A DNA stretch of 64,000 nucleotides, from positions 620,001 to 684,000 of the forward strand of contig BPKO01000001.1 of NCBI GenBank assembly GCA_026005175.1. Reading direction: 5' to 3'. Source of the DNA: Candidatus Tectimicrobiota bacterium. Its GTDB lineage: Bacteria > Tectomicrobia > Entotheonellia > Entotheonellales > Entotheonellaceae. The notes beneath the pieces were generated by a model. It worked only from the letters and a program-made list of their open reading frames with translations, had not been told where the DNA came from and did not search any database. A program made the position numbers and the translations under genes. How positions within the stretch are numbered: position 1 is the stretch's first letter; each line of letters opens with the position of its first letter. Below, piece by piece: positions 2,750 through 26,540 of the stretch.

Positions 2750-2813
2750 TTCATGCTATGATTAAGGAGACACGTGGCACTCAGAGGAGGCGGCACGGAG
2801 GCGGCAGGGAGGC

Positions 2814-3485: not shown

Positions 3486-3499
3486 GGAGGAAGTGTTCT

Positions 3500-5941
3500 A
3501 TGTTCAAGCGTTTCACGGAACGGGCCAGGCGCGTCATCATTCTCGCCAGAGAAGAGGCGGAACGGCATCATCACGAATATCTCGGCACCGAACACATTCT
3601 GCTCGGTATGCTCAAGGACGGCGGCGGCATTGCCATCACCGTTTTGCAGAAGTCAGGCCTGAGCATCGACCAGATCCGGCTCGAGGTGGAGCGCCACTTG
3701 CCGCGTAACGTCAACTCGCTGGTGGTGGGCGAGATTCCCTTTACCCCCAAGGCCAAGAAGGTCTTGGAATACGCCGTGGAAGAAGCCCGCCTCATGGGCC
3801 ACAACTACATCGGTACCGAGCACCTGCTGCTGGGCCTGCTGAAAGAAAAGGAGGGCATTGCCGCCAAGGTGCTCAACAGCCTGGGCATCCGCCTGGTGGA
3901 AACGCGCGAGAAGATCCTCAACTTGCTGCAAGAGCCAGCCACCAAGACAAAAGAGAAGACCAAGACGCCGGCGCTGGACGAGTTCGGGCGCGACCTGACG
4001 GAGCTGGCGCAGAGCGGCAAGCTGGATCCGGTGATCGGGCGCGAGACCGAGATCGAGCGTGTCATCCAGATTCTGTGCCGCCGCACCAAGAACAACCCGG
4101 TGCTGATTGGCGAGCCCGGGGTGGGGAAAACGGCCATTGTCGAGGGGCTGGCGCAGCGCATCGTCAACCGTGAGGTGCCGCAGCTCCTCTTTGACAAGCG
4201 CATCGTGGCCCTCGACTTGGGCGCCCTGGTGGCCGGCACCAAGTACCGCGGCCAGTTCGAGGCCCGCATGAAAGCCATCATGAAGGAAATCGTGCAGGCC
4301 GAAAACGTGGTGATTTTCATCGACGAGCTGCACACCCTGGTGGGGGCTGGGGCGGCCGAGGGCTCGGTGGACGCTTCCAACATGCTGAAGCCGGCGCTGT
4401 CGCGCGGCGAGATCCAGTGCATCGGCGCCACGACGCTCGACGAGTACCGCAAGTACATCGAGAAAAACGGCGCGCTGGAGCGGCGCTTCCAGCCCATCAT
4501 CGTCGATCCGCCCAGCATCGAAGAGAGCATCGAGATTCTCAAAGGGCTGCGCGACCGCTACGAAGCGCACCACGGCCTGCGCATCCCCGATGCCTCTATC
4601 GAGCAGGCAGTGAAGCTCTCGGCGCGCTATGTCACCGACCGCTTCTTGCCCGACAAGGCCATTGACGTGATGGACGAAGCAGCAGCCCGGGTGCGCCTGC
4701 GGCGCATCACGCCGCCGCCGACGGTGCGCGACTTGCAGCGCAAAGTCAACGAGCTGGTGCGGCTCAAGAAAGAGAAAATCGAAAACCAGGAGTTCGAAAA
4801 GGCGGTGGAACTGCGCGATCAGGAAGAGGAGCTCCGCCACCAGATCGAGCTGCTCAAGCGCGAGTGGGAGGAGACCCAAGGCGAGGCCGACTTGGTGGTA
4901 ACCGAAGAGGACATCGCTTACGTGGTGTCGCGCATGACCGGCATCCCCATCTCGAAGATCGAGGAGGCGGAGTCGCGCCGGCTGCTGAACATGGAAGCGG
5001 AGCTGCACAAGCGCGTCATCGGCCAGGACGAGGCCATTGCCGTGGTGACGCGGGCCATCCGGCGCTCGCGTGCCGGCCTCAAGGATCCGCGGCGTCCGGT
5101 GGGCACGTTTATTTTCCTGGGCCCCACCGGAGTGGGCAAAACCGAGCTGGCGCGCGCCTTGGCCGAGTTCCTCTTCGGTGACGAAAGCGCCCTCATCCGC
5201 GTCGACATGTCGGAGTACATGGAGCGCTTCAACGTGTCGCGCCTCACCGGCGCCCCGCCGGGCTACATCGGCTACGACGAGGGTGGCCAGCTCACCGAGC
5301 AGGTGCGGCGCAAGCCCTACTCGGTGGTGCTGCTGGACGAAATTGAGAAAGCGCACCCCGACGTCTTCAACATCCTGCTTCAAGTGATGGACGACGGGCA
5401 CCTCACCGACAGCTTTGGGCGCAAGGTGGACTTCAAGAACACCGTGATCATCATGACGTCGAACCTCAGTGCCCGGACCATCGAGAAGAACATGGCGATT
5501 GGCTTCCAGAAGGAGGACGAAACGACCACCTTCGAAAAGATGAAAGCCAACGTCATGAACGAGCTCAAGCGCACCTTCAATCCCGAGTTCCTCAACCGCA
5601 TCGACGAAGTGGTGATGTTCCATCCGCTCAACCTGGAGCATATCAAGCAGATCGTCGACATCATGCTGGCTCGCCTCAACAAGCAGATGGCGGAGCAGGG
5701 CATCACCCTCGAGATCGACGAGGCGGCCAAGACCTGGCTGGCCCAGAAGGGCTATGACCCGGCCTACGGGGCGCGGCCTTTGCGGCGGGCCATCCGGCGT
5801 TACATCGAGGATCCGCTCTCGGAAGAGGTGCTGCGCGGCGAATTTGCCGGTGGCGGCGTGGTGCAGATCCGGCTGGCCGGCGAAGAGCTGGTGTTCGTCG
5901 CCAAGCAGGCCGACACGGTGGAGACGCTCTCCGACGGTTAA
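3500..5941 (+). CDS. clpC: AAA+ unfoldase ClpC
   Basis: Hexameric unfoldase that feeds substrates to ClpP. 813 aa. Order: duplicated Clp N domain (about 1-145), first AAA+ module with Walker A GEPGVGKT at 204-211, a UVR motif in the middle segment ([18 protein letters not shown]), second AAA+ module with [11 protein letters not shown], and the C-terminal D2-small domain. The UVR motif and the missing long ClpB coiled coil make it ClpC rather than ClpA or ClpB. The start ATG follows AAGGAGG. Gram-negative ClpC is less universal than ClpA; a ClpS-like candidate adaptor lies at 19589. No clpP is visible in the window. Confidence 0.95.
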
Positions 5942-5970
5942 CGCCCACGCGTTCCATTCTTCGCTTCAGC

Positions 5971-5999
5971 AGCCCGATGGAGCCTTCCATCGGGCTTTG
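5971..5999 (+). terminator. Hairpin between clpC and bamA, probable terminator
   Basis: A perfect 11-bp inverted repeat, AGCCCGATGGA (5971-5981) and TCCATCGGGCT (5986-5996) with a four-base loop, is followed by TTGC. The U-tract is short, so it may be a weak or attenuating terminator that separates the lolCD-clpC transcript from the bamA-lpx transcript. Confidence 0.7.
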
Positions 6000-6031
6000 C
6001 TGTGTCTGGCGCCGGACAGGGAGCAGGGGAG

Positions 6032-8329
6032 GTGAGCGCGCACGGTTACGCAGCCAGGGATGCCGCGCGCGTCGCACACAACGGGCTGCTACGCCTGCTC
6101 CTCGTGCTCTCTCTGGGTCTACTTTGCCTCCGCGGCTACGCCGCGGCCGCCGTGCCGCCTGGGACTATCGTGCGGGACATTGAGATCCGCGGCCACCGCC
6201 GTACGCAGGAGGCGACGATTCGCTTCTACCTCAAAACCGAGGTGGGCAAGCCTTTCTCTCCGCAAGTGCTGCGCGAGGACATCCGGCGGCTTTACGCGCT
6301 GGGCGTCTTCGACAACATCATGGTCACTGCAGAACCGATAGCTGATGGAGTACGACTAGTTTTTATCGTCTCCGAAAAACCAACAGTCAGAAATGTCACG
6401 TTTAGCGGCAATCGCTTCGTGAATGACGACGAGATCCGCCAGCGCCTGCGGCTGCGCCCCCGCGATACCTTTGACCGCCATCGCCTGCGCGAAACGGTCA
6501 GCAGCCTGCGCAGCTACTACCGCGAGCAGGGATACTACTTCGCCCACGTCAGCCCTGAAGTGACCGCAGTGGCAGACAACCAGGTCGACGTGCACCTGCG
6601 CATCACCGAGGGGAAAAAAGTCCGCATCGCAAGTATCCGCTTCACGGGCAACGCCCACTTTACCAGCGCCGAGCTGCGCCGGCAGTTGCAGCTCAAGGAA
6701 TTCGTGCTGCCCGTACTCAGCAGCACCTCTTCTCTGTATCGTCCGGAGCTGCTGCGCGTCGACTTGCAGCTGGTGGAGAATTTCTATCAGAACCACGGCT
6801 TTGTCGACGTGCAGCTGGGCGAGCCGCTGGTAGAAATCAACCGCGAAGCCGGCGCCGTCACCATCACCGTCCCTATTGCCAGCGAGGGCGAGCAGTACAA
6901 GCTCGGCCGCCTCGACGTGCAAGGCGACGAGGTCTTCAGTGCCGAAGCGCTGCGGCAGCAGCTGCGCCTTGCCACGGGCGAAATCTACAGCCGCGAGGCG
7001 GTGCGCCGCACCATCCTCGCTCTGACCGAAGCGTACACCGACAAAGGCTACGCCTTTGCCGACGTGACCCCGACGGTTACCGTGGACCGCGAGGCGCGCC
7101 TCATTCACCTGCGCTTTACCACCCGTCCTGGTCCCCGCGTCTACATCGGCCGCATCGACATCGTCGGCAACGAGCGCACCCGCGACTGGGTGATCCGGCG
7201 CGAGCTGCGCTTTCACGAAGGCGAACTCTACAGCGGTAGCAAGCTGCGGCGGTCGCGGCAGCGTCTGCTCAACTTGCAGTACTTCGAAGAAGTCAAAATC
7301 GACACCAAGCGCCGCGCCGACGAAGCGCTGCTCGACGTCGAGGTCGAGGTGCGCGAGCAGTCCACGGGGCAGTTCACCGCCGGGCTGGGCTTCAGCTCGA
7401 TTGAGGCGGTGGTCTTTACCGCCGCGGTGACCCAGCGCAACCTCTTTGGCCGCGGGCAGTCGATCACCGCCAGTGCCCGCATCGGCGGCCTCTCCCAGGA
7501 CTTTCTGCTCGACTTCCGCGAGCCCTGGCTCTTTGGCCGTCCCATTATTGCCGGCTTTAGCGTCTTTCGTCGCTCTCTAGACTTTTTCACTTTTGACGTG
7601 CGGCGCACCGGCTTTAACCTCAGCTTGGGGCGCCACTTTGGCGAGTTCACCCGCCTCACCACGACATATAACTTCGAGATCCTAGAAATCAGCGATCTCG
7701 ACCCCAGCGCCTCGCAGTTCCTGCAGGAGCAGGAAGGAACGTCGATCGTCAGCAGCATCACGCCGCGCCTGGTCTACGACTCGCGGGACAACGTCTTCGA
7801 CCCGAGCGGTGGAGCGCTTCATTCTTTCGAAGTTGAGCTGGCCGGCCTCAGCGGCGCGCGCTTTTTCAAAGTCCTTGGAGACTCCACCTGGTACTTCCCG
7901 CTGCCGGCGGGCCTCACGGGCTTCGTGCGCGGCCGCTTTGGCCTTGGCGACGGCTACGGCGGCGACGTCATGCCGGCTTCGGAGCGCTTCTTTCTTGGCG
8001 GCGTGACCACCATCCGCGGCTTTGACTTCCGTGAGATCGGACCGCAAGACGCCGAAGGCAATCCCCTGGGGGGTACCGCCTTCGTACAGTTCAACCTCGA
8101 AGTCGGCCGCAGCTTCGGGCGCCTGCTGCGGCTGGTGGCGTTTGTTGACGCCGGCAACGTCTATCCCTCGTTGTCCCGCTTTGACCTTGGCGAGTTGCGG
8201 CGCAGTGCCGGCTTTGGTATACGCTTGCTCACCCCGGTGGGGCCGATCCGGCTCGACTGGGGCTTCAAGCTCGACCGGCGCCCTGGCGAGAGCATCGGCG
8301 AGCTGGGCTTTTTACTGGGCTCGTTTTAG
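6032..8329 (+). CDS. bamA: Outer membrane protein assembly factor BamA
   Basis: Central pore of the BAM complex, inserting beta-barrels into the outer membrane. About 765 aa from GTG 6032, chosen because AGGGAG lies eight bases upstream; an alternative GTG at 6002 sits almost on the clpC hairpin. A signal peptide (LLRLLLVLSLGLL, cleavage near the alanine run) is followed by five POTRA domains (IEIRGHRRTQEATIRFYL starts the first) and a C-terminal 16-strand barrel. The final residue is Phe, the BAM recognition signature. It is followed by skp and the lpx genes, the usual arrangement. Confidence 0.95.
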   Translation: MSAHGYAARDAARVAHNGLLRLLLVLSLGLLCLRGYAAAAVPPGTIVRDIEIRGHRRTQEATIRFYLKTEVGKPFSPQVLREDIRRLYALGVFDNIMVTAEPIADGVRLVFIVSEKPTVRNVTFSGNRFVNDDEIRQRLRLRPRDTFDRHRLRETVSSLRSYYREQGYYFAHVSPEVTAVADNQVDVHLRITEGKKVRIASIRFTGNAHFTSAELRRQLQLKEFVLPVLSSTSSLYRPELLRVDLQLVENFYQNHGFVDVQLGEPLVEINREAGAVTITVPIASEGEQYKLGRLDVQGDEVFSAEALRQQLRLATGEIYSREAVRRTILALTEAYTDKGYAFADVTPTVTVDREARLIHLRFTTRPGPRVYIGRIDIVGNERTRDWVIRRELRFHEGELYSGSKLRRSRQRLLNLQYFEEVKIDTKRRADEALLDVEVEVREQSTGQFTAGLGFSSIEAVVFTAAVTQRNLFGRGQSITASARIGGLSQDFLLDFREPWLFGRPIIAGFSVFRRSLDFFTFDVRRTGFNLSLGRHFGEFTRLTTTYNFEILEISDLDPSASQFLQEQEGTSIVSSITPRLVYDSRDNVFDPSGGALHSFEVELAGLSGARFFKVLGDSTWYFPLPAGLTGFVRGRFGLGDGYGGDVMPASERFFLGGVTTIRGFDFREIGPQDAEGNPLGGTAFVQFNLEVGRSFGRLLRLVAFVDAGNVYPSLSRFDLGELRRSAGFGIRLLTPVGPIRLDWGFKLDRRPGESIGELGFLLGSF

Positions 8330-8350
8330 CCTCAAGGGAGGAGTCAGTCT

Positions 8351-8929
8351 ATGCAGCAGCGATGGCGGTGGGGAGGGCTTCTCGGGTGTCTCCTGATCTT
8401 GGGCTTTTGGGGAACTGCCGAAGCGCAGCTCAAAATCGGGGTGGTGGACTTGCAGGCGGTCTTGGATAACTCGATCCGCGGCAAGGCAGCCAAAGAGCAG
8501 CTGCGCGAGCTGGGCCGCAAGCTACAAGAGGAAATCCAGACCAAGCGCGAATTCAAAGAGCAACGCGAAAAAGAGCTGGAAAAGTTGCGTTCGGAGATCC
8601 GCAGCCAGGGGCTGGTGCTGAGCGAGCAGGCTCGCCTGGCCAAAGAAGAGGAGTTTCGCAGACAGGTGCGGGAACTCAAGCGCTTCATCGCCGACACCAA
8701 CCGCTTCATCGAAGACGCCCTCCAAGAATTCCGCGAGAAAGAGGCGCGGGAGACCCAGCGCCTGATTGCCGAAATCCGCCAAGTGGTGCAGGACCTGGGC
8801 AAGCGCGAAGGCTACAGCCTCATCCTCGAGGGCAACGAGACCACCGCCGTGGTGCTCTATTACGGCAAGGCGGTGGACCTGACGCAGAAAGTGATCCAGC
8901 TCTACGACCGTGCCTCGGCCAAACGTTAG
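8351..8929 (+). CDS. skp: Periplasmic chaperone Skp/OmpH family
   Basis: Holdase chaperone that escorts unfolded outer-membrane proteins to BamA. 192 aa from ATG 8351 with a GGGAGGAGT ribosome site. A signal peptide ([18 protein letters not shown]) precedes the characteristic [11 protein letters not shown] strand, then a long charged helical region rich in E, K, R and Q forming the tentacle coiled coil, and a C-terminal strand ([17 protein letters not shown]). Its place between bamA and lpxD is highly conserved. Confidence 0.93.
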
Positions 8930-8948
8930 CCTAGCGAAAGGGCACGCC

Positions 8949-9983
8949 ATGCAGGCCACGCTTGCCGACCTGGCCCGCTTGCTCGCCGCCGAGGTGGAGG
9001 GAGAAGCACAGACGCGCATCACCGGCATTGCCCCCCTGGAGCAGGCCGGGCCGGGCGACTTGACGTTTATTACCCAGCGGCGCTACGCGGCACGCCTGGC
9101 CGCTTGCCGGGCCAGTGCGGTGCTCGTCGACCGCCACTTGCCCGTCGACCGCCCTGCCCTGCGCGTTGCCGACCCCCTGCATGCCCTCATCGTCCTGCTC
9201 GAGCACTTCTTTCCGCTGCGCCATCCCCGCTGGGGCATCGACCCCCGCGCCGTGCTCCACCCCAGCGTCACGGTGGGCGCCGATGTCAGCATCGCTCCCT
9301 ACGTGGTGATCGAGGCTGGCGCTCGCCTGGGCGACCGGGTGGTGGTCTATCCCGGCACGTACATCGGCGCGGAGTGCGTCATCGGCGATGAGTGCGTCCT
9401 CTATGCCAACGTCAGCCTGTACGCGCGCGTTCACCTCGGCCGCGGGGTCATTGTCCACAGCGGCGCGGTGATCGGCGCCGACGGCTTTGGCTTTCAGCGG
9501 CAAGCCGACGGCTCGTACCGCAAGATCCCGCAAGTGGGACGCGTGGTCATCGGCGACGGGGTGGAAATTGGCGCCAACACGTGCATCGACCGTGCCACCG
9601 TGGGTGACACCACCATTGCGGCAGGGACGAAAATCGACAACCTGGTGCAAATCGGCCACAACGTCACCATCGGCGCGCACACCGTGCTGGCCGGTCAGGT
9701 GGGCCTGGCCGGCAGCGTGCGGGTGGGGGCGCACGTGCGCATGGCCGGACAGGTAGGGGTAGCCGACCACGTCACCATTGGCGACCACAGCGCCATCGGC
9801 GCGCAGGCTGGCGTGGCTCAGGACGTGCCCCCGGGCGCGGCGGTGTGGGGCACCCCGGCCATGCCGCTGACCGCCTGCAAGCGGCTGCACGTCTACACCT
9901 CGCGGCTGGGCGAGCTGTTCCAGCAAGTCAGGCAGCTGCAGCAGCGCGTTGCGCAGCTCGAGGCCCGGGAGAGACGGTCATGA
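8949..9983 (+). CDS. lpxD: UDP-3-O-acylglucosamine N-acyltransferase LpxD
   Basis: Third step of lipid A synthesis: adds an R-3-hydroxyacyl chain from ACP to the amino group of UDP-3-O-acylglucosamine. 344 aa from ATG 8949. An N-terminal uridine-binding domain (about 1-100, [17 protein letters not shown]) leads into left-handed beta-helix hexapeptide repeats; the catalytic His lies in [11 protein letters not shown], and the C-terminal helix ([17 protein letters not shown]) is present. The stop overlaps the fabZ start in ATGA fashion, so coupling is likely. Confidence 0.95.
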
Positions 9984-10447
9984 CTGCCCTGGGACCCGAA
10001 GCCATCGTGGCTCTCCTGCCGCACCGCTATCCTTTCCTGCTCGTCGACCGCATTCTGGAAGTGGTGCGCCACAAGTACGCCATTGGCCTCAAAAACGTCA
10101 CCCTCAATGAGCCCTTCTTCCAGGGACACTTCCCTGCCTACCGCGTGATGCCCGGCGTGCTGGTCATCGAGGCCATGGCCCAGGTGGGCGGCATCCTGGT
10201 GTACTATTCGGCCAACGAGGACACCACGCGCGGCAAGCTGCCGCTGTTTACCGGCATCGACCGCTGCAAGTTCCGGCGGCAGGTGGTGCCCGGCGATCAG
10301 CTGCGCCTGCACGTAGAAGTCCAGCGACGCCGCGGCGCCCTGTGGCGCTTGCGAGGCCGCGCTTTTGTCGAAGACGCCCTGGCCGCCGAGGCCGAGCTGC
10401 AGGCCTTTCTCGCCGACATGCCGGGAGAAGGAGCCCTCTTGCCATGA
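9980..10447 (+). CDS. fabZ: 3-hydroxyacyl-ACP dehydratase FabZ
   Basis: Dehydrates 3-hydroxyacyl-ACP in fatty acid elongation and so competes with LpxA/LpxD for the same acyl-ACP pool. 155 aa from ATG 9980. The hot-dog fold signature [13 protein letters not shown] is at the N-terminus, with the catalytic His in GHFP and the catalytic Glu in [12 protein letters not shown]. It overlaps lpxD and lpxA by four bases on each side, a tightly coupled arrangement seen in many diderms. Confidence 0.96.
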
Positions 10448-11220
10448 CGCAACACATCGATCCCCGCGCCATCATCCACCCTACGGCCAAAATTGCCGAT
10501 AACGTGACGATCGGACCGTTTGCCATCATCGGAGAGGAAGTCACCATCGGCGAGGGAACGGTGATTGGCCCGCACGTGGTGATTGAGCGCTGGACGAGCA
10601 TCGGCGCCCGCTGCCGCATCGGCGCCGGGGCAGTCCTGGGCGGCGCGCCCCAGCACGTGCAGTACGACGGCGCGCCGAGCTATTTGCGCATCGGCGACGA
10701 CAACGACATCCGCGAGCTGGCCGTCATCCAGCGCAGCGCTTTCCCAGAGGGCAGCACGGTCATTGGCTCGCACAACTTCATCATGTCGCAGGCCCACGTG
10801 GCCCACGACTGCGTCATCGGCAACCACGTGGTGCTGGCGAGCCTTGCCGCCCTGGCCGGCCACGTCGAGGTCGAAGATGGCGTCATGGTAGGCGGCGTCA
10901 CCGGCGTGCACCAGTTCGTGCGCCTCGGCACCTACAGCATGGTGGGCGGCAGCTCGCGCATCAGCCAGGACGTCCCCCCCTACATGCTCGTCGCCGGCAA
11001 CCCGGCCGCCGTTTACGGGCTCAACGTCGTGGGCCTGCGCCGCGCCGGCTTTGACGCCAACTTGCGGCGTGAACTCAAGGCGGCCTACCGGCTTCTTTAC
11101 CGCTCTGGCTTGAACGTCAGCCAGGCCCTTGCTACAATCAAGCGCCAGCCACACCTGAGTGCACCGGTGGCACACCTGGTCGACTTTATCGAGCGTTCAA
11201 AACGAGGCATCTGTTCGTAA
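10444..11220 (+). CDS. lpxA: UDP-N-acetylglucosamine acyltransferase LpxA
   Basis: First step of lipid A synthesis. 258 aa from ATG 10444. Hexapeptide repeats (I-G-x-x-x) fill residues about 5-190, the catalytic His sits in [12 protein letters not shown], and the C-terminal helical domain follows ([20 protein letters not shown]). Length and motifs match the family. The next gene begins 63 bases downstream after a short palindrome (GTGCTGCAGCAC near 11227). Confidence 0.96.
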
Positions 11221-11283
11221 TTTCCTGGTGCTGCAGCACTGATGCCATAATCCTTCTAACCGTCCAGCAGACAGGAACCGACG

Positions 11284-12249
11284 ATGCACAAAGTGCGGGC
11301 CGGTGTCGTAGGCGTCGGGCAAATGGGGCAGTACCACGTTGGGATTTACAGCGAGCTCTTTGACGTCGAGCTGGTGGGCATTGCCGATATCGACCGCGCC
11401 CGCGTCGTCGCCCTGGCCGAAAAGTACAACACCACTCCGTATACCGACTACCGCGAGCTTCTGGGCCGAGTCGACGTGGTGAGCATTGCCGTGCCGACGT
11501 CGCTTCACTACCCGGTGGCACGCGACTTTCTCAAAGCCGGCGTCCACGTCCTGCTTGAAAAACCCATTGCGCCGACGCTCGAAGAAGCCCGCGAGCTCTT
11601 CCGCCTGGCCGAAGCCAACGGTGTCGTCCTCCACATCGGCCATGTGGAACGCTTCAACGGCGCGGTGCAGGAGCTCAAAAAAATCGTCCACGACCCCTGG
11701 CTCATCGAGTGCCGGCGCCTGGGGCCTTTCGTGCCCCGCATCAAAGAAGACGGGGTCGTCCTCGACCTCATGATTCACGACATCGACATCATCCTCAGCC
11801 TGGTCAACTCTCCCCTGCGCCAGATTCAGGCGCTGGGCAAATCGATCGTCTCGCCTCACGAGGACTTGGCCAGCGTCCAGCTTTGCTTCCAAAACGGCTG
11901 CATCGCCAACATCGTGGCTTCCCGGGTGACCGAAATCAAAGTTCGCACCATGGCCATTACCCAGCGCGACGCTTATATCGTGCTCGATTACACCAATCAG
12001 GACATTCAGATCCACCGCCAAGCCGCTTCGGAACACCTGGTGACGCGCGGCGCCCTGCGCTACAAGCAGGAGTCGTTCATCGAACGCATCTTTGTCCACA
12101 AGGACAACCCCCTCAAGCTTGAGATTCGCCACCTCCTCGACTGCGCCCAAAACGGCGCCCCGCGTGCCGTGGCGGTGGAGGAGGAGCTGCGCTCCTTGCA
12201 GGTCGCCTTGCAGGTCTTGGACATCCTCGACAAAGACGGCTTGGTTTGA
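11284..12249 (+). CDS. Gfo/Idh/MocA family oxidoreductase in the lipid A operon
   Basis: NAD(P)-dependent sugar dehydrogenase-like protein of 321 aa. It has an N-terminal Rossmann start (VRAGVVGVGQMGQYHVGIYS), the conserved LLEKPIAPT segment (EKP motif), and the alpha/beta substrate domain with HDIDIILSL. A member of this family next to lpxA/lpxI/lpxB recurs in deltaproteobacterial gene orders. Some relatives make amino sugars for modified lipid A, such as GnnA, which needs an aminotransferase partner; none is adjacent here. The true substrate is unknown. Confidence 0.8.
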   Translation: MHKVRAGVVGVGQMGQYHVGIYSELFDVELVGIADIDRARVVALAEKYNTTPYTDYRELLGRVDVVSIAVPTSLHYPVARDFLKAGVHVLLEKPIAPTLEEARELFRLAEANGVVLHIGHVERFNGAVQELKKIVHDPWLIECRRLGPFVPRIKEDGVVLDLMIHDIDIILSLVNSPLRQIQALGKSIVSPHEDLASVQLCFQNGCIANIVASRVTEIKVRTMAITQRDAYIVLDYTNQDIQIHRQAASEHLVTRGALRYKQESFIERIFVHKDNPLKLEIRHLLDCAQNGAPRAVAVEEELRSLQVALQVLDILDKDGLV

Positions 12250-12262
12250 GGCGAGGTGCCCT

Positions 12263-13097
12263 GTGGCGCAGCTGGGCTTGATTGCCGGCGCCGGAGAGCT
12301 GCCTCGCCTGGCGGCCCAGCACGCCTGGCGCCAGGGGCAGCGTTTGCCCGCGGTGGCGCTCTCGCCGCCCATTGCCGAAGCCCTTGCGCCTTACTGCGCG
12401 CCCGTGCTGCAGTACCATCCAGGAGAGCTGGGGAAGATCCTGCAAGCGCTGCGCCGCTGCGGCGTGCAGCAGGTGGTGATGGCAGGGACGGTGCCCAAAG
12501 CCCCGCTGTGGCAGGCACCGCGCCTGGACCTGCGGGCGCTACGCGTGCTGCGCCGTGCCCGCGCCTACCGCGACATGACCCTATGGCAGGCCCTGAGCGC
12601 CGAATTTGCCCGCGAGGGCCTGGAAGTCGTCGAGCAGACGCGCCTCCTTGGCCATCTCCTGGCTCCCGAGGGGGTGCTGACGCCCCGGCATCCCACGCGC
12701 CGGGAATGGGAAGACATCCGCTACGGCTTTGCCCAGGCCAAGCGGCTGGCCAGCCTCGACATTGGCCAGACGGTGGTCGTCTACCGGGGTACGGTGCTGG
12801 CGGTGGAAGCCGTGGAAGGAACGGACGCCGCCATTGCGCGGGGCTGCCGCTACGGCCGCCGCGGAACGGTGGTGGTCAAGGTGGCCCGCCAGCACCAGGA
12901 CATGCGCTTTGACGTGCCCGCCGTGGGACCTGACACCCTGCGTACCTTGGCTGCTGGGCACGGCAGCGTGCTTGCCGTGGAGGCCGGGAAGGTCTTCATG
13001 CTCCATCGTGAGGAATTGCTTGCCACCGCCAGGGGCCCAGCGCATCGCCCTGGTGGGGGTGGCTGCGGCCCCGATGCCGCGCGGCGAGGAGGCGTGA
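12263..13097 (+). CDS. lpxI: UDP-2,3-diacylglucosamine pyrophosphatase LpxI (frame disrupted)
   Basis: Cleaves UDP-2,3-diacylglucosamine to lipid X, replacing LpxH in many alpha- and deltaproteobacteria. Start GTG 12263 after GAGG, about 277 aa once repaired. The GLIAGAGELP N-terminus, the AGTVPK segment and the C-terminal DUF1009 domain (LDIGQTVVVYRGTVLAVEAVEGTD) are clear. After EELLATA (around 13030) the expected ending AQRIALVGV is found in the next frame, finishing at TGA 13095-13097. One extra base at about 13031 (in CCAGGGG) explains this. As printed, the frame instead reads through into lpxB. Confidence 0.88.
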
Positions 13098-14278
13098 TGG
13101 CGGCCGCCTCCAGCCTGCTAGTGGTCGCCGGGGATGCCTCTGGCGACCAGCACGGGGCAGAACTCAGCCGCGCACTACAGGCGCGCTTGCCCCACGTGCA
13201 CCTCTACGGCATAGGGGGAGCAGCGATGCGCGCCGCCGGCGTGGAGACCCTGTTTGACACCGCCGCGCTCAACGTCGTCGGGCTTGTGGAAGCCGGACGC
13301 AAGCTTCTCCCCGGCCTGCGCATGGCGCGCGGCCTGGTGCGCGAAGCCCAGCGGCGCCGCACCCCGGTGGCGGTGCTCATCGATGCCCCAGGCTTTAACC
13401 TTCCCCTGGCGTGCCGGCTCAGGCGGGCCGGCGTGCGTGTCGTTTACTACGTCAGCCCGCAGGTCTGGGCCTGGCGGCGCCGCCGCGTGCACACCCTGGC
13501 GCGCTGCGTCGACCTCATGCTCACCCTTTTCCCGTTCGAGGTCCCGTTTTATAGGGCTGCCGGCGTCCACGCTGTCTGCGTCGGCCATCCCCTGCTCGAC
13601 CGCATCGCGTCTCTGCCTCCTCCGGAAGCGGCCAGGGTTCAGCTGGGCCTCGGGCCGGCTCGCCCCACGGTGGCCTTGCTGCCGGGCAGCCGCGACCACG
13701 AGGTGCGGCGTTTACTTCCCCCCTTGCGCGCTGCCTTCTGCCACCTCGCGGCGCACCTTCCAGAAGTGCAAGGGGTTCTGCCCCTGGCCCCTACCCTTAA
13801 CCGGCAGGCCCTTTCTTCTTTGCTGGCTTCCCTCCCCGCGGCGGTCAAGGTGGTCGAAGGCCAGAGCTTGCTGGCCCTGCGGGCTGCCCACTACGCCATG
13901 GTGGCCTCGGGCACCGCCACCCTGGAAGCTGCCTTGCTGCAAGTGCCCATGGTGGTCGTCTATCGCCTGCACCCGCTGACGGCCCTGCTTGCCCGCCTGC
14001 TGGTTCGCGTTCCCTATATCAGCCTCGTCAACCTCATTCTTGGCCAGCCAGTGGTCCCCGAGCTGCTGCAGCGCCGCGTCAAGCCACGCACCCTGGCAGC
14101 CTTGGCCTTACGCTTCCTCACCCAGCCCGCAGAAGCGGCGCGCCTGCGCGCCGCCCTGGCCGCGGTGCGTCCTGCCCTGGGGGAACCCGGAGCGGCGCAG
14201 CGCGCCGCTGCCCACGTGCAGGCGTTTTTGACCAGCCCCGCCGCTGCGGCGACCCTAAATCAAGGCCCCACCCGATAG
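13097..14278 (+). CDS. lpxB: Lipid A disaccharide synthase LpxB
   Basis: Joins lipid X and UDP-2,3-diacylglucosamine into the tetra-acyl disaccharide. 393 aa from ATG 13097, which overlaps the lpxI TGA. Family features: VVAGDASGDQHGAELSRAL at the N-terminus, IDAPGFNLPLACRLR, YYVSPQVWAWRRRRV, GHPLLD and LLPGSRDHEVRRLLP, with VASGTATLEAALL near the C-terminal nucleotide site. A GT-B inverting transferase of the inner-membrane face. The last bases overlap the convergent exchanger gene by 19 bases. Confidence 0.95.
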   Translation: MAAASSLLVVAGDASGDQHGAELSRALQARLPHVHLYGIGGAAMRAAGVETLFDTAALNVVGLVEAGRKLLPGLRMARGLVREAQRRRTPVAVLIDAPGFNLPLACRLRRAGVRVVYYVSPQVWAWRRRRVHTLARCVDLMLTLFPFEVPFYRAAGVHAVCVGHPLLDRIASLPPPEAARVQLGLGPARPTVALLPGSRDHEVRRLLPPLRAAFCHLAAHLPEVQGVLPLAPTLNRQALSSLLASLPAAVKVVEGQSLLALRAAHYAMVASGTATLEAALLQVPMVVVYRLHPLTALLARLLVRVPYISLVNLILGQPVVPELLQRRVKPRTLAALALRFLTQPAEAARLRAALAAVRPALGEPGAAQRAAAHVQAFLTSPAAAATLNQGPTR

Positions 14279-19944: not shown

Positions 19945-20040
19945 GCCCTTGTCGCACGGAAGCGGGACTTGCGAGGAGCGCGGTCTTGGTGTGCAAGGGC
20001 AAGGGGTGAGCCGGCGGGGCCTTCCCAGAGGAAACCAACC

Positions 20041-20529
20041 GTGAAAACAGTGGTGCGGCTGCGCGTCAACGGCGACGAGGTGGAGGTGTGGGTTCCCGTC
20101 CACAAGACCCTGCTAGAAGTGCTGCGCGAAGACCTTCAGCTGACGGGAACCAAGCACGGCTGCGAGCTGGGGGAGTGCGGCACCTGTACCGTGCTCCTCG
20201 ACGGCCAGCCGGTGCTCTCCTGCCTGGTCTTGCCTATTGAGGTGCAGGGGCAGGAGATCGTCACCATCGAAGGCGTGGCTGCCGGCAGCGAACTGCATGC
20301 GCTGCAGGCCGCCTTTGCCGAGTTGGGCGCGGCGCAGTGTGGCTACTGCACCCCGGGCATGATCCTGACCGCCTTGGCGCTGCTGCGCACCAACCCTGCC
20401 CCAACGCGGCAGGAAGTGAAAGAGGCGCTGGCCGGCAACCTCTGCCGCTGTACCGGCTACCTCAAGATCCTCGACGCCGTTGCGCGCGCCGCGGCTTCTC
20501 TGAAGGATGGCTCCTCCTATGGCGGCTGA
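20041..20529 (+). CDS. hcrC: Molybdenum hydroxylase [2Fe-2S] subunit, 4-hydroxybenzoyl-CoA reductase gamma type
   Basis: Iron-sulfur subunit of a xanthine oxidase-family enzyme; it relays electrons between the FAD and molybdenum subunits. 162 aa from GTG 20041. The plant-type ferredoxin cluster is at CELGECGTC plus a later Cys (LSCLV), and the second cluster at CGYCTPGM and CRCTGY. Length equals that of HcrC of Thauera. The 3' end overlaps the large subunit gene. The specific substrate is inferred mainly from the companion HcrB-like subunit. Confidence 0.88.
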   Translation: MKTVVRLRVNGDEVEVWVPVHKTLLEVLREDLQLTGTKHGCELGECGTCTVLLDGQPVLSCLVLPIEVQGQEIVTIEGVAAGSELHALQAAFAELGAAQCGYCTPGMILTALALLRTNPAPTRQEVKEALAGNLCRCTGYLKILDAVARAAASLKDGSSYGG

Positions 20530-22927
20530 CGACTATACCCTGATAGGCCGGCCCATTCCGGCGCGGGTGGATGGCGCCGGCAAAGTAACGGGACTGACGC
20601 GCTACGCCGACGACCTCTTCCCTGCTCGCTTGCTTTATGGCAAGTTGCTGCGCAGCCCCTACCCCCATGCCAGGATTCTCCGCATCGATACCTGCAAAGC
20701 CGCCGCCCTACCTGGCGTCAAGGCGGTGATCACCGGTGCCGACTTGCCCAGGCCATTTAGCATCATGCCGGTAAATCAGGACGAGCACGCCTTGGCCATC
20801 GACAAAGTGCGCTATGTCGGCGAGCCGGTAGCGGCAGTAGCGGCAGTTGATGAGGAAACGGCAGAAGCGGCCCTGCACTTGATTGAGGTCGCGTACGAGC
20901 CGTTGCCGCCGGTGATGTCGATTGAAGAAGCCCTGGCGCAGCCCGACAACCGCATCCACACCTACAACCGCGTCGGCAACGTGCACCGGGTGGTGGCGCT
21001 GGAGTTTGGCGACGTGGAAGCGGGTTTTGCCGAGGCCGATTACATTCGCGAAGATACCTTTTTCTTCCAAGGCAATACCCACTTGCCCATGGAGCAGCAC
21101 GCGGCCGTCGCCCACTGTACTCCGGATGGCCAGATTACCCTGTGGAGCGCCACCCAGACGCCGCACTACGTGCACCGCGCCCTGGCCGCGGTGCTCGATA
21201 TCCCTCCCAGCCGCATTCGCGTTATTGCCACGCCCGTGGGGGGCGGCTTCGGGGGCAAGAGTGACCCCTTCGCGCACGAGTTCTGTGCGGTCAAGCTCTC
21301 CATGCTCACCGGTCGTCCGGTGAAGATCTGCCTCACCCGCGAAGAGGTCTTCTACGCCCACCGGGGCCGCCACCCGGTGCTCATGTGGATCCGCACCGGC
21401 GTCAAGCGCAATGGGGCGATCACCGCCATGCACTTTAAGTCCTTTATCGATGGCGGGGCGTACAGCAGCTACGGGGTGGCCACCACGTACTACACCGGCG
21501 CCCTGCAAACGGTGACGTACCGGGTGCCCAATTACCGCTTCGAAGGGCTGCGGGTGTTTACCAATAAGCCGCCGTGCGGCCCCAAGCGCGGCCACGGGAC
21601 GCCCCAGCCGCGCTACGCCCTGGAAGTGCACCTGGACAAAATCGCCGAGGACCTGGGCTTGGACCCCGTGCAGATTCGCCGCCCGCACCTGGCCAAGCCC
21701 TTTTCCATGACCGTCAACCACCTGCGCATCACCAGCTGCGCCTTGGACGAATGCCTGGACGCGGTGGTGAAGCGCTCAGAGTTCCTCCAGAAACACCGCC
21801 GCTTGCCTTTTGGCAAAGGGGTGGGGCTGGCGTGCAGCGCCTACCTCAGCGGGGCGGGCTTGCCCATTTACTGGAACGAGATGCCCCATTCGGGGGTTAC
21901 CCTCCAGCTCGACCGCAGCGGCAGCGTGTGCGTTTTTTGCGGCGCCGTCGACATCGGCCAGGGCTCTGACTCGGTGCTGGCGTTTACCGTGGCCGAAGAG
22001 CTGGGAATCGACCCGCGTGACGTGCGCCTGGTTACCGCCGATACCGGAATCACCCCAGTGGATCTGGGGAGCTACTCGAGCCGCGTTACGTTCATGGCTG
22101 GCAACGCGGCCATTGTTGCGGCGCGCCAGCTGCGCGAGCGCCTCTTTGCGGCGGTGGCCGAGCACTGGGGCATTCCCGCACGTCACCTGCGGGCGGCGCA
22201 GGGGCGCATTTTTGCCGTCACGGATCCGTCGCGCAGCATGCCGTTTGCCGAAGCCGTGCAGCGCGCTGAAGCGAAGTTCGGTACTCTGAGCGCCTCTGGC
22301 AGCTATACCCCGCCGCCTCTAGCAGGAAAGTACAAAGGGCACGGCGTGGGCCCCTCCCCGGCGTACAGCTACACGGCGGCGGTGGCGCAGGTGGACGTGG
22401 ATCCCGATACCGGTTGGGTGACGGTGGAAAAAGTCTGGATTGCCCATGACATCGGCAAAGCCCTGAACCCCTACCTGGTGGAGGGGCAAATCGAGGGCAG
22501 CGTCTACATGGCCCTGGGCGAGGTGCTGATGGAGGAGCAAGTCTTCCGCCGCGGCGTACACAAGTTTCCCTCCATGCTCGAGTACAAAAGCCCCACCTTT
22601 CTCGAGATGCCGGAGGTCGAGACGATTCTCATCGAAAGCCTTGACCCCGAAGGCCCTTACGGCGCCAAAGAGGCAGGGCAGGGGCCGCTGCTGCCGGTCA
22701 TCCCGGCGGTGGCCAACGCCGTTTACGATGCCATCGGGGTGCGCCTCGACGAGATCCCCATCACCCCGGAGAAAGTGCTCAAGGGGCTAGAGCTGCGCGC
22801 CAAGGGGCAAGTGGCCCGCCTTGGCCCGCGGGGCATTCCCGCCTTTGCCTTTCCGCCACCGCGCTGCGTAGAGGTCCCGGAGGAATGGCTGGTTCACCTG
22901 CCTGATGCCAAGACGCGACGCCCATGA
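20519..22927 (+). CDS. hcrA: Molybdenum hydroxylase large subunit, 4-hydroxybenzoyl-CoA reductase alpha type
   Basis: Catalytic subunit binding the molybdopterin cofactor, 802 aa from ATG 20519 (AAGGA 11 bases upstream; ATG 20507 is also possible). Landmarks: GRPIPARVDGAGKVTG at the start, the cofactor loop PVGGGFGGKSDPFAHE, the segment NKPPCGPKRGHGTPQPRYA, GQGSDSVLAFTVAEELG, and the C-terminal YGAKEAGQGPLLPVIPA, where Glu of GAKEAG is the expected active-site base. These last segments match HcrA more closely than xanthine or CO dehydrogenase from memory. In 4-hydroxybenzoyl-CoA reductase the reaction is reductive removal of the para hydroxyl. Confidence 0.85.
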   Translation: MAADDYTLIGRPIPARVDGAGKVTGLTRYADDLFPARLLYGKLLRSPYPHARILRIDTCKAAALPGVKAVITGADLPRPFSIMPVNQDEHALAIDKVRYVGEPVAAVAAVDEETAEAALHLIEVAYEPLPPVMSIEEALAQPDNRIHTYNRVGNVHRVVALEFGDVEAGFAEADYIREDTFFFQGNTHLPMEQHAAVAHCTPDGQITLWSATQTPHYVHRALAAVLDIPPSRIRVIATPVGGGFGGKSDPFAHEFCAVKLSMLTGRPVKICLTREEVFYAHRGRHPVLMWIRTGVKRNGAITAMHFKSFIDGGAYSSYGVATTYYTGALQTVTYRVPNYRFEGLRVFTNKPPCGPKRGHGTPQPRYALEVHLDKIAEDLGLDPVQIRRPHLAKPFSMTVNHLRITSCALDECLDAVVKRSEFLQKHRRLPFGKGVGLACSAYLSGAGLPIYWNEMPHSGVTLQLDRSGSVCVFCGAVDIGQGSDSVLAFTVAEELGIDPRDVRLVTADTGITPVDLGSYSSRVTFMAGNAAIVAARQLRERLFAAVAEHWGIPARHLRAAQGRIFAVTDPSRSMPFAEAVQRAEAKFGTLSASGSYTPPPLAGKYKGHGVGPSPAYSYTAAVAQVDVDPDTGWVTVEKVWIAHDIGKALNPYLVEGQIEGSVYMALGEVLMEEQVFRRGVHKFPSMLEYKSPTFLEMPEVETILIESLDPEGPYGAKEAGQGPLLPVIPAVANAVYDAIGVRLDEIPITPEKVLKGLELRAKGQVARLGPRGIPAFAFPPPRCVEVPEEWLVHLPDAKTRRP

Positions 22928-22937
22928 GGAGAGAGCG

Positions 22938-23945
22938 ATGCTCCGCCTGCCGCCGTTTACGTACCTGCAGCCGCGTACCCTGGGCGAAGCCGTGCGCCTG
23001 CTTGCCGAGCAGCCTCCGGGAGAAGCGATGGCGGTAGCCGGCGGCACGGACCTTTACCCCAACATGAAGCGGCGCCAGTTCGAGCCCAAGTACCTCGTCG
23101 GGCTGCGCCGGCTGCCAGAGCTCCGTTTCCTGCACGGCGATGCGCGACAGGGACTGACCATCGGTGCCGGCATGACGCTCACGGAAGTGAGCACGCACCC
23201 GCAAGTGCGCCAGGGCTATCCGGCGCTGGCCACCGCCGCCGGCCTTGTCTCCACGCCGCAGCTGCGCAACATGGGAACCATTGGCGGCAACCTCTGCCTC
23301 GATACGCGGTGCAACTACTATAACCAGACGTACTGGTGGCGCCAGGCCATTGGCTTTTGCCTGAAAAAAGACGGCGACACCTGCTGGGTGGCCCCTGGCA
23401 GCCGCCGCTGCTGGGCGGTGGCCTCCTCCGATACGGCGCCGGTGTTGCTGGCCCTGCAGGCACAGGTGACTTTGCTCGGCCCGCAGGGCGAGCGCACCCT
23501 GCCGCTGGCCGCCCTCTACCGTGACGACGGCATCGCTTACCTGAACAAGGGCCATGCCGAAATCCTCACCCGCATCACCGTTCCCCCGGCCGAGGGCCTG
23601 CGTATGGCTTACGTCAAGCTGCGGCGGCGAGGTGCTTTTGACTTTCCCGTCCTTGGTGTTGCTGTGGCCTTGCGCCTGGCCGATGACGGCACCTGCACGG
23701 AGGCACGTCTTGCCTTGGGCGCGGTGGCTTCAGCCCCGCTGTTGGCGACCGAGGCCGCTGCCCTGCTGCAGGGCAACCGCCTCACCCCAGAAGTCATCGA
23801 GGCAGCGGCCGCGGCCGCTTTTCGCCCAGCGCGGCCCCTGGACAACACCGACCTGACGCTGGCGTACCGCAAGAAAATGGTGCGCGTGCACGTGGCACGT
23901 ACCCTGTACCAGCTGGCGGGGCTGGCGGCGCCTGCCGCCTTGTAG
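22938..23945 (+). CDS. hcrB: FAD/[4Fe-4S] subunit, 4-hydroxybenzoyl-CoA reductase beta type
   Basis: 335 aa from ATG 22938 (GAGGAGAGAGCG upstream). FAD-binding segments are present (AVAGGTDLYPNMK and TIGGNLC). The decisive feature is an insertion absent from xanthine dehydrogenase and CO dehydrogenase: Cys125, Cys141, Cys149 and Cys158 with spacing 16-8-9, in CLDTRCNYYNQTYWWRQA and the following residues. This spacing equals that of the extra [4Fe-4S] cluster of Thauera HcrB (Cys122/138/146/155). The cluster is the signature that lets the enzyme run as a reductase with ferredoxin. Order here is gamma-alpha-beta. Confidence 0.9.
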   Translation: MLRLPPFTYLQPRTLGEAVRLLAEQPPGEAMAVAGGTDLYPNMKRRQFEPKYLVGLRRLPELRFLHGDARQGLTIGAGMTLTEVSTHPQVRQGYPALATAAGLVSTPQLRNMGTIGGNLCLDTRCNYYNQTYWWRQAIGFCLKKDGDTCWVAPGSRRCWAVASSDTAPVLLALQAQVTLLGPQGERTLPLAALYRDDGIAYLNKGHAEILTRITVPPAEGLRMAYVKLRRRGAFDFPVLGVAVALRLADDGTCTEARLALGAVASAPLLATEAAALLQGNRLTPEVIEAAAAAAFRPARPLDNTDLTLAYRKKMVRVHVARTLYQLAGLAAPAAL

Positions 23946-23990: not shown

Positions 23991-24866
23991 GTGGCCATCA
24001 GAGTCTTGATCGTCGACGACGAACCGACCATCTGCCGCCTCCTGGCGGAAATGCTCAAGCAGTTCGAGGGATATCAGGTGATGACCGAGGCCGACGGCCG
24101 CCGCGTGCTGCCCTTGCTGCAGCAGGAGGCCTTTGACGTGGTGCTGCTCGACTTGATAATGCCCAACCCCGACGGGATGACGCTACTGCGGGAAGTCAAA
24201 AAGCGCCATCCCGAGCTCCCGGTGATCGTCGTTACGGGTTACGGCAGCATCGAAACTGCCGTTGCCGCTATGCAGGCGGGAGCGGCCGACTTTATGACCA
24301 AGCCGGTGCAGGCCTCAGTGCTCGACATTCGCATCAAAAAAGCCCTCGAGCACGTACATGCTTGGCGCTTGGCTCACACCGATGGCCTCACTGGTCTTTT
24401 CAACCGCCGCGCCTTGCAAGAGCGGCTGCAGCAGGAAGTGGAGCGGGCCAATCGCTACCGTCGGCCTTTGTCGCTGGTGATGATCGACATCGACTTTTTT
24501 AAGCACTACAACGATACCCACGGGCACCTGCAAGGCGACACCGTCCTGGTGGAGGTCGCCCTGCTGCTGCGGCAGCGCAGTCGGGCTGCAGATTTCGTCG
24601 CCCGCTACGGTGGGGAAGAGTTCGCGATTATCCTGCCCGAGACCGCTTGCCCCAACGCGGTACGCTTTGGCGAGCGGCTGCGGGCGGCGGTGGCGCGCCG
24701 CCGCTTTCCCGGAGAAGACTGCCTACCAGGGGGGAGGCTAACCATCAGCGTGGGGGTGGCCAGCCACCGCCCGCTTGGCACCCGGGAAGCCTTGTTGCAA
24801 GCCGCCGACGCAGCCCTGTACCAGGCCAAACGCCAGGGACGCAACCGGGTCTGCCTGGCTCCCTGA
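23991..24866 (+). CDS. Response regulator with diguanylate cyclase (REC-GGDEF)
   Basis: 291 aa from GTG 23991. The receiver domain (1-120) has acidic residues DDE at 9-11, phospho-acceptor Asp54 (VVLLDLIMP), Thr82 and Lys104 (TKP). The GGDEF domain (about 125-288) has an intact active site GGEEF (207-211) and an inhibitory I-site RAAD (198-201) five residues before it. So it should make cyclic di-GMP when phosphorylated and be feedback-inhibited. No histidine kinase is adjacent. It follows hcrB by 45 bases and may be co-transcribed. Confidence 0.93.
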   Translation: MAIRVLIVDDEPTICRLLAEMLKQFEGYQVMTEADGRRVLPLLQQEAFDVVLLDLIMPNPDGMTLLREVKKRHPELPVIVVTGYGSIETAVAAMQAGAADFMTKPVQASVLDIRIKKALEHVHAWRLAHTDGLTGLFNRRALQERLQQEVERANRYRRPLSLVMIDIDFFKHYNDTHGHLQGDTVLVEVALLLRQRSRAADFVARYGGEEFAIILPETACPNAVRFGERLRAAVARRRFPGEDCLPGGRLTISVGVASHRPLGTREALLQAADAALYQAKRQGRNRVCLAP

Positions 24867-24930: not shown

Positions 24931-25974
24931 ATGCCATCTGCCGCGTTGCAGTCGACCCGCTACGAAGTCAGCGATACGGTTGAAGCTATCGAGTTTTACT
25001 ATGCCAAGGGGTGGACCGATGGGCTGCCGGTGGTGCCACCCACCGAACACCGCGTGCGGGCGATGCTCGACGCTGCGGGACTGGAGCCTGGCGAGGAGAT
25101 CACCTTTATCGAACACCGCCAGGTGTCGGTGACAGCCGAAAAAGTGGCCATTAACGCCGTAATGGCCGGCTGCAAGCCAGAGTATATGCCGGTGGTGGTT
25201 GCTGCGGTGGCGGCGCTTGGCGACCCGCGCTGGAGCTACCACGGGCCGGCCACCAGCACCGGCGGCGCGGCGGTCTTCATGCTCGTCAACGGGCCGATTG
25301 CCCGCGAACTGGGCCTCAACTGCGGCGACAACCTGTTTGGCCCGGGCTGGCGCCCCAACGCCACCATTGGCCGAGCGGTGCGCCTGGTGATGCGCAACGT
25401 CATCGGCACCCTGCCCGGCCGCCTTGACCGCAGCACCCTGGGACATCCTGGCAAGTACACGTTTTGCGTTGCCGAAAACGAGGAAGAAAGCCCGTGGCCG
25501 CCGGTGCACGTGGAGCGCGGCTTTCGTCCCGAGCAGAGTGCGGTCACCGTCTTTGCCGCCCTGGCGCCGCAGCAGTTCTACAACCAGCTGAGCAACACGG
25601 CCGCGGGCATCCTGACCACCGCCTGTGCCCACATGCGCATTTCCGCTGGCGTGGGCGCCCAACCCCAGTACGTGCTGGTCATTGCTGGCGAGCACATGCA
25701 GGTGATGGCCAAAGAGGGATGGACCAAGGAAGACATCCGGCAGTTTTGCTATGCCCATACTCAAACGTCGCTGGCAGAACTCAAGCGCATTCACGTCCTG
25801 CCCGGTCCCATCCGCCCGGAAGACGAAACCACCCTCCAGCCCCTGGTGCCGACGCCGGACGACTTCATCGTCGTGGCCGCCGGCAGCCGGGCAGGGGCCT
25901 TTTCGGCCTTTATTCCAGGGTGGGGGAGCAAGCGGATTTCGGAAAGCGTGACGCGGGAAATCCGCCGCCCCTAG
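24931..25974 (+). CDS. Conserved protein of unknown function paired with the UGSC selenoprotein
   Basis: 347 aa from ATG 24931 after a strong GAGGAGGGGGG site. I do not recognise a characterised family. Visible features: no signal peptide, no membrane span, an N-terminal segment EFYYAKGWTDGLPVVPPTEHRV, several Gly/Pro-rich loops (GPGWRPNATIGRAVRLVMRN, YHGPATSTGGAAVFMLVNGP), and scattered Cys residues in LNCGDNLFG, TTACAHMR and QFCYAHT. The gene ends 29 bases before the UGSC start, so the two are likely one operon, and a shared reaction or complex is the natural guess. A soluble redox or ligase-type enzyme is possible but not shown. Confidence 0.6.
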   Translation: MPSAALQSTRYEVSDTVEAIEFYYAKGWTDGLPVVPPTEHRVRAMLDAAGLEPGEEITFIEHRQVSVTAEKVAINAVMAGCKPEYMPVVVAAVAALGDPRWSYHGPATSTGGAAVFMLVNGPIARELGLNCGDNLFGPGWRPNATIGRAVRLVMRNVIGTLPGRLDRSTLGHPGKYTFCVAENEEESPWPPVHVERGFRPEQSAVTVFAALAPQQFYNQLSNTAAGILTTACAHMRISAGVGAQPQYVLVIAGEHMQVMAKEGWTKEDIRQFCYAHTQTSLAELKRIHVLPGPIRPEDETTLQPLVPTPDDFIVVAAGSRAGAFSAFIPGWGSKRISESVTREIRRP

Positions 25975-26003
25975 CGAGGGTATTCAGCAGAGGAGAGCGC
26001 CTG

Positions 26004-26540
26004 ATGGCCAAATTGCAGGTCTTTGACCCCACCACCGAAGTCAAGGAACGGCCGCTGGTGTTTGCCCCACGGCCCGACTCGCTGCGCAACGCGCGCATCG
26101 GCCTGGTAGAAAACACCAAGTTCAACTCCGACAAGCTGCTCTTGAAGATCGCCGCTATCCTCGAGCAGGAGTACGGCGCCCGCGGGCACGTCTTGCGCCG
26201 CAAGCGCAACGCCAGCGTGCCGGTGGATGCCGAGACCCTCCAGGAGCTCAAAGCCACCTGCGACGTGGTCATTGCCGGCATCGGCGATTGAGGTTCGTGC
26301 AGCTCGGGCAGTGTGCTCGACGGCATTCTTTTTGAACAGCACGGCGTTCCGGCTGCGGCGATCGTCACCGATGTGTTCGTCGAAACGGGACGAGCCATGG
26401 CCCAGACATGGGGCGTGCCGCAGTACCAATTCCTCAGCATGCCGCATCCCATTGCCAACCTTACGGAAGCCGAGCTCGACCAGCGGGCACGTGACATTGC
26501 GCCTCGTGTGGTCCAGCTCTTGCTCGAAGGACAGGCCTAG
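26004..26540 (+). CDS. UGSC-family selenoprotein with in-frame UGA (Sec96)
   Basis: 178 aa from ATG 26004 (GAGGAGAGCG upstream). Codon 96 is TGA (26289-26291), in the same frame as both flanks, and gives GIGD-U-GSC-SSGS. This is the U/C-G-S-C motif of the UGSC family, which occurs in selenocysteine and cysteine forms. The N-terminal part has ARIGLVENTKFNSDKLL, and the C-terminal part FEQHGVPAAAIVTDVF and QFLSMPHPIANLT. Function is unknown; U96 and Cys99 form a C-x-x-C-like redox pair. Reading through as Sec needs SelB, tRNA-Sec and a SECIS just after the UGA; none of the sel genes is in this window. A nonsense-mutated gene is the weaker alternative. Confidence 0.82.

Follow-up and report, generated by a model that had tools for sequence, protein, structure and literature searches.

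In glycine reductase and D-proline reductase, a selenocysteine (Sec) is thought to attack the substrate carbon that bears the amine leaving group while the substrate is held through a carbonyl (pyruvoyl) group, and the resulting C-Se bond is then cleaved by a thiol (PMC10298544). The Sec residue of glycine reductase lies in GrdB (selenoprotein B, PF07355), which works with GrdE (PF09338), and that of D-proline reductase in PrdB, a small selenoprotein subunit whose substrate-binding counterpart is the pyruvoyl proprotein PrdA. A related pair from Cloacibacillus, FarB/FarE, combines a GrdB-type Sec subunit with a GrdE-homologous binding subunit that is described as lacking the pyruvoyl-forming cysteines, and has been proposed to act as a fluoroacetate reductase that attacks the fluorine-bearing carbon and cleaves the C-F bond (PMC10838667). 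The UGSC family, published as a selenoprotein family by Zhang and Gladyshev in 2008, was among the most abundant selenoproteins of a large aquatic metagenome survey; it was reported without a function, with a thioredoxin-like fold proposed (PMC2398784), and was still listed without a function in 2026 (PMC13188914).

Here we analyzed a UGSC gene and its upstream neighbor in a 64,000-nucleotide stretch of bacterial DNA (the window; Table 1). A sequence-only reading had described a TGA that splits an otherwise intact 178-residue protein precisely at the U of its UGSC motif (GIGD-U-GSC), preceded by a 347-residue gene that ends 29 bases before the UGSC start codon, and in all these respects its coordinates proved exact. 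When the TGA, which is the sole interruption of the reading frame, is read as Sec, the product is a full-length match to the Pfam UGSC model and to no other Pfam model (PF24696, E 1.3e-59, 201.6 bits against a cut-off of 25), and it also matches the NCBIfam 'UGSC family (seleno)protein' model (NF041046, 144.9 bits against a cut-off of 125). It thus belongs to the family described in PMC2398784, with Sec in the UGSC motif. The same reading had placed the pair beside a CoA-ester reductase operon; the upstream genes match 4-hydroxybenzoyl-CoA reductase models well, but none of the three subunits reaches its curated cut-off and a response regulator-GGDEF gene lies in between. This molybdenum hydroxylase is possibly a pathway neighbor that stands outside the UGSC-partner module.

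Table 1. Features of the UGSC locus, in window coordinates
Feature	Position	Strand	Remarks
Three-subunit molybdenum hydroxylase resembling 4-hydroxybenzoyl-CoA reductase (matches below curated cut-offs)	19969..23945	+	
Response regulator-GGDEF protein	23991..24866	+	Between the molybdenum hydroxylase genes and the UGSC-partner pair
Partner protein gene	24931..25974	+	347 aa; good Shine-Dalgarno sequence (gaggagg) just 5'
Ribosome-binding site of the UGSC gene	25991..25995	+	AGGAG; inside the 29-base intergenic gap
UGSC-family selenoprotein gene	26004..26540	+	178 aa with Sec96 and Cys99
Selenocysteine codon TGA (U96)	26289..26291	+	Retained as TGA in 80 of 81 homologues
Cys99 codon TGC, second residue of the UxxC motif	26298..26300	+	Invariant
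SECIS hairpin	26304..26320	+	7-bp stem; apical loop GTG at 26311-26313; about 20 nt 3' of the UGA

The genome that contains the window, a metagenome-assembled genome (MAG) of 77% completeness, carries the machinery for Sec insertion whose presence the sequence-only reading had made a point of: selA (E 8.8e-192), selB (E 4.5e-117) and a tRNA-Sec with anticodon TCA. It also holds seven UGSC genes, each with exactly one in-frame TGA, located at the motif codon, which excludes a chance event or a sequencing error as the origin of the TGA. To follow this codon more widely, we used 80 loci gathered from named genomes by a partner-profile search, the genome's own copies included; these yielded 82 UGSC matches corresponding to 81 genes, since one match is the second fragment of a frameshifted copy. 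The motif codon is TGA in 80 of the 81 genes and TGC in one, so that Sec is kept across homologues. Similarly, in a separate sample of 386 genomes, every full-length UGSC match listed contains one TGA, except for a Cys-bearing protein in one genome (G274), and a strong tRNA-Sec match (E below 1e-12) was found in 21 of the 23 UGSC-containing genomes, the exceptions being G143 and the same G274. Sec coding is further supported by a Chloroflexi (Dehalococcoidia) MAG in which a tRNA-Sec gene (L068:10467-10564) lies less than 1 kb from a UGSC gene.

Bacterial Sec insertion was further examined at the RNA level, in an alignment of the 54 bases starting at the UGA, which is free of gaps in 77 sequences. 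A 7-bp stem (columns 16-22 with 26-32) closed by a three-base loop, mostly GTN, occurs about 20 bases past the UGA, with 92.6% of its cells paired compared with 80.9% in shuffles and a covariation of 0.259 compared with 0.087, where cells are counts of sequences and not of independent events. At pair 21:27, 60 of the 77 sequences have C-G and the other 17 have G-C, with no exceptions, and pair 19:29 alternates among U-A, G-U, A-U and U-G. The switch in pair 21:27 occurs at third codon positions, in varying codons for Val, Leu, Ile and Phe (GTG/GTC, CTG/CTC, TTG/TTC, ATC), so the encoded peptide alone does not explain it. Folded as a single sequence, the corresponding region of the window is no more stable than its shuffles, and the hairpin with compensatory changes that was sought after 26291 is visible in the alignment only. 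The opposite view, in which the TGA is a genuine terminator or stems from a sequencing error or an alternative code, leaving a truncated or artefactual protein, could draw on the incompleteness of the MAG and on the frameshifts in two other UGSC/partner copies of this genome; it is refuted, and in our view virtually untenable, given a TGA conserved at one codon in homologues from many phyla, the covarying SECIS, the Sec machinery of the genome, and the use of TGA as a terminator in other genes of the same genome, two UGSC paralogues among them. That the UGSC gene of the window encodes a selenoprotein, with the TGA as its Sec codon, is thus well supported.

The upstream gene is a near-obligate companion of UGSC, a conclusion that is likewise well supported. 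In the genome of the window, seven UGSC and seven partner genes occur, all of them in adjacent pairs, and two of these pairs (C1c and C9) form one fused protein each, in which UGSC precedes the partner; four more fusions were found in other genomes. Among the loci gathered with the partner as query, a same-strand partner gene lies no more than 1 kb away for 77 of the 82 UGSC matches, several of which share one open reading frame with it. The search that started from UGSC instead gave the same picture: 23 of the 386 sampled genomes contain UGSC, 23 contain the partner and 22 contain both, and of the two genomes with one member alone, G077 has a short fragment close to where a contig starts and G367 a partner fragment of 47 residues. 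The co-occurrence that the sequence-only reading had marked out for mapping is therefore almost perfect, with a partner in 22 of the 23 UGSC genomes. Moreover, the pairwise distances of UGSC and of the partner correlate (r=0.87 for 74 pairs, against at most 0.16 in permutations), indicating inheritance of the pair as one unit. Its gene order is not fixed: the partner mostly comes first, and sometimes UGSC does.

Several partner loci with no UGSC in reach stop at contig ends; some from Poribacteria, together with L096, L106 and L109, do not, and their UGSC genes may lie elsewhere in those genomes. The two frameshifted copies in the genome of the window, on contigs C2 (L023:8876-9920) and C6 (L027:9840-10465), represent either assembly indels or decaying copies. 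On one betaproteobacterial contig (L061), three UGSC and three partner genes are found within 17 kb.

The partner represents a new family, absent from Pfam and NCBIfam: neither the 347-residue protein nor 75 of its relatives gave a convincing match in these collections, and no convincing match to the protein was found among PDB sequences. Plausibly, it corresponds to the unnamed 'Unknown_1' domain to which UGSC was reported to be fused (PMC2398784), as matched by description only. Eight residues are invariant in the family (D30, G31, P33, N143, R148, N156, E182 and W189) and two cysteines, C81 and C179, nearly so; Cys81 is replaced by Ala in the partner domains of two fused proteins (L035:2931-3956 and L042:6938-7957). 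The predicted structure is confident (pLDDT 94.3) and has weak matches only, headed by alpha subunits of class I fumarase (Foldseek E 2e-4, yet with an rmsd of 16 and a query TM-score of 0.27; VIA Z 5.3). An assignment to this fumarase family (PF05681), prompted by these matches, found no support in a profile comparison (E 0.24). Profiles also revealed no relation of the partner to GrdE or PrdA (E 0.57 against the GrdE set), and the genome of the window contains no match to PF09338, the GrdE/PrdA model. A TTAC stretch near Cys232, considered as a mark of a pyruvoyl proprotein, is not conserved and was rejected as a family feature.

A profile-profile comparison aligned UGSC with the Sec domain of GrdB and PrdB, Sec on Sec, with an E of 4.7e-9 and a probability of 96%, and with the motif masked the E was still 4.7e-7; with a smaller GrdB set, for which the true value was 4.9e-8, none of 30 column-shuffled controls fell below 0.069. 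Independently, the Pfam UGSC model matches GrdB at residues 326-422, directly after the GRDB domain, with an E of 7.6e-5 and a score just below the curated cut-off (23.3 against 25 bits). When GrdB and PrdB-like genes are read through their TGA, the C-terminal domain consists of a strand, the UxxC motif, a helix ending in E..G(I/V)P and a further strand, followed in GrdB by a (P)HP motif, a layout like that of UGSC. On the strength of these sequence comparisons, homology of UGSC to the Sec domain at the C-terminus of GrdB (glycine/betaine/sarcosine reductase) and PrdB (D-proline reductase) is well supported. A search of solved structures by sequence gave no convincing match for UGSC, the partner, GrdB or GrdE.

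UGSC also differs from these proteins. In GrdB, about 345 residues, which form the GRDB domain (PF07355), precede the Sec, and GrdE is the companion subunit, whereas in UGSC the Sec follows only about 95 residues and there is no GrdE; PrdB-like proteins of environmental bacteria, at least those seen here, carry UPxC in place of UGSC and differ in their N-terminal part; and the UGSC partner shows no relation to PrdA or to GrdE, of which FarE is a homologue. Short PrdB-like UPxC selenoproteins are present in many bacteria. Three genomes of the same family as that of the window (G001-G003) also contain GrdB and GrdE genes, with a TGA at the Sec site in those GrdB genes that were read through it. 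Matches of the Pfam GRDB model, at L110-L129 and L205-L227, miss the Sec domain because the model goes no further than the Sec codon.

Combined with the pairing, this homology leads us to favor, by a modest measure, a model in which UGSC and its partner are two subunits of one selenium-dependent enzyme that cleaves C-X bonds; complex, chemistry and substrates are all inferred here. The UGA would be read as Sec through the hairpin downstream of it and the SelA, SelB and tRNA-Sec of the genome, giving a small alpha/beta protein whose homologue in GrdB and PrdB is the Sec-bearing C-terminal domain. The partner would hold the substrate, an organic acid or CoA ester, thereby taking the role of GrdE or PrdA with no detectable relation to either. 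The selenolate of Sec96 would be the nucleophile that attacks the substrate carbon bearing the leaving group, by analogy with C-N cleavage in GrdB and PrdB and with the C-F cleavage proposed for the GrdB relative; Cys99 would serve as the resolving thiol, closing a selenenylsulfide that a cellular dithiol resets, for a net reductive cleavage of the C-X bond. Some observations speak against this model. With no large N-terminal GRDB domain in UGSC, and a partner that shows no relation to GrdE and PrdA, the same pyruvoyl activation of the substrate is unlikely; furthermore, homologous Sec domains can catalyze different reactions, and the neighboring genes are too variable to name a substrate.

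A plain thiol-oxidoreductase role would fit the UxxC motif equally well. Following the suggestion made in PMC2398784, UGSC would then be a thioredoxin-like thiol/selenol oxidoreductase that reduces disulfides or peroxides and feeds electrons to the partner, the actual catalyst, whose conserved Cys81 and Cys179 would suit such a role. We consider this unlikely, as UGSC is instead homologous to GrdB and PrdB, its Sec is almost never replaced by Cys, unlike in the thioredoxin-like families tabulated in PMC2398784, and its AlphaFold2 model (pLDDT 94.7) alternates strand and helix units, with flavodoxin- and Rossmann-like folds among the matches listed; as a prediction, this model does not favor a thioredoxin-like fold. 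Sec could also act as a covalent nucleophile in a non-reductive reaction, such as acyl, alkyl or sulfur transfer between CoA esters, a role to which the CoA-related neighbors of several copies and the nucleophilic Sec implied by the GrdB relation would lend themselves. Yet the invariant resolving Cys of UxxC suggests redox turnover and the GrdB and PrdB reactions are themselves reductive, making this option quite improbable in our estimation.

Under the C-X cleavage model, the surroundings of the individual copies bear on the substrates. Copy C12 lies directly 3' of an acyl-CoA ligase gene, copy C6 lies 3' of an enoyl-CoA hydratase gene and 5' of branched-chain-type ABC transporter genes, copy C9 lies beside hydantoinase genes, the copy in the window is one gene downstream of the hydroxylase resembling 4-hydroxybenzoyl-CoA reductase, and many Burkholderiales copies are near binding proteins of the tripartite type, as named from sequence. 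The placement of seven diverged copies beside acyl-CoA ligase, enoyl-CoA hydratase, hydantoinase or organic-acid transport genes suggests that they act on different organic acids or CoA thioesters, and we infer that the substrates are probably carboxylic acids or CoA thioesters. No constant third gene was found among the neighbors across loci; recurrent in a minority of loci, with names again judged from sequence, are an SDR dehydrogenase, a luciferase-like monooxygenase, a Bug-type binding protein, an NHL-repeat protein and ABC genes.

Compared with the earlier description of UGSC, which offered a proposed fold and no function (PMC2398784), the analysis adds a near-obligate second gene family, as many as seven pairs in one genome, the Sec-on-Sec homology to GrdB and PrdB, and the finding that the partner shows no relation to the pyruvoyl subunits GrdE and PrdA. 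These points are new: our literature search, which left most subscription journals outside, found no paper that links UGSC to GrdB or PrdB or presents the partner as a second gene; PMC2398784 does mention a fusion to an unnamed domain. The GrdB/PrdB link and the near-obligate partner give this long-unexplained family a first testable reaction type. We tentatively raise the broader possibility that UGSC-partner pairs constitute a large unrecognized class of selenium-dependent reductases, which would cleave the C-X bonds of many different organic acids or CoA esters with no pyruvoyl cofactor and extend Stickland-type selenium chemistry to environmental bacteria (Dehalococcoidia/SAR202, Rokubacteria, Binatia, Tectomicrobia and Burkholderiales). 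If the model is true, bacteria of soil, groundwater and sea would possess a varied set of selenium-based reactions with which to break bonds that are otherwise stable.

One further locus touches on both Sec and the reductant. Sheuella amnicola (L078), an isolate, has the pair between selB and the gene for a putative binding protein of a selenate transporter (TIGR04553), within a selenium island at 799-13700 that comprises this putative ABC binding protein, the partner, UGSC, a LysR regulator, a thioredoxin-reductase-like flavoprotein and selB. The grouping of the pair with the selenate-transport protein, the flavoprotein and selB supports the presence of Sec and suggests a reductant.
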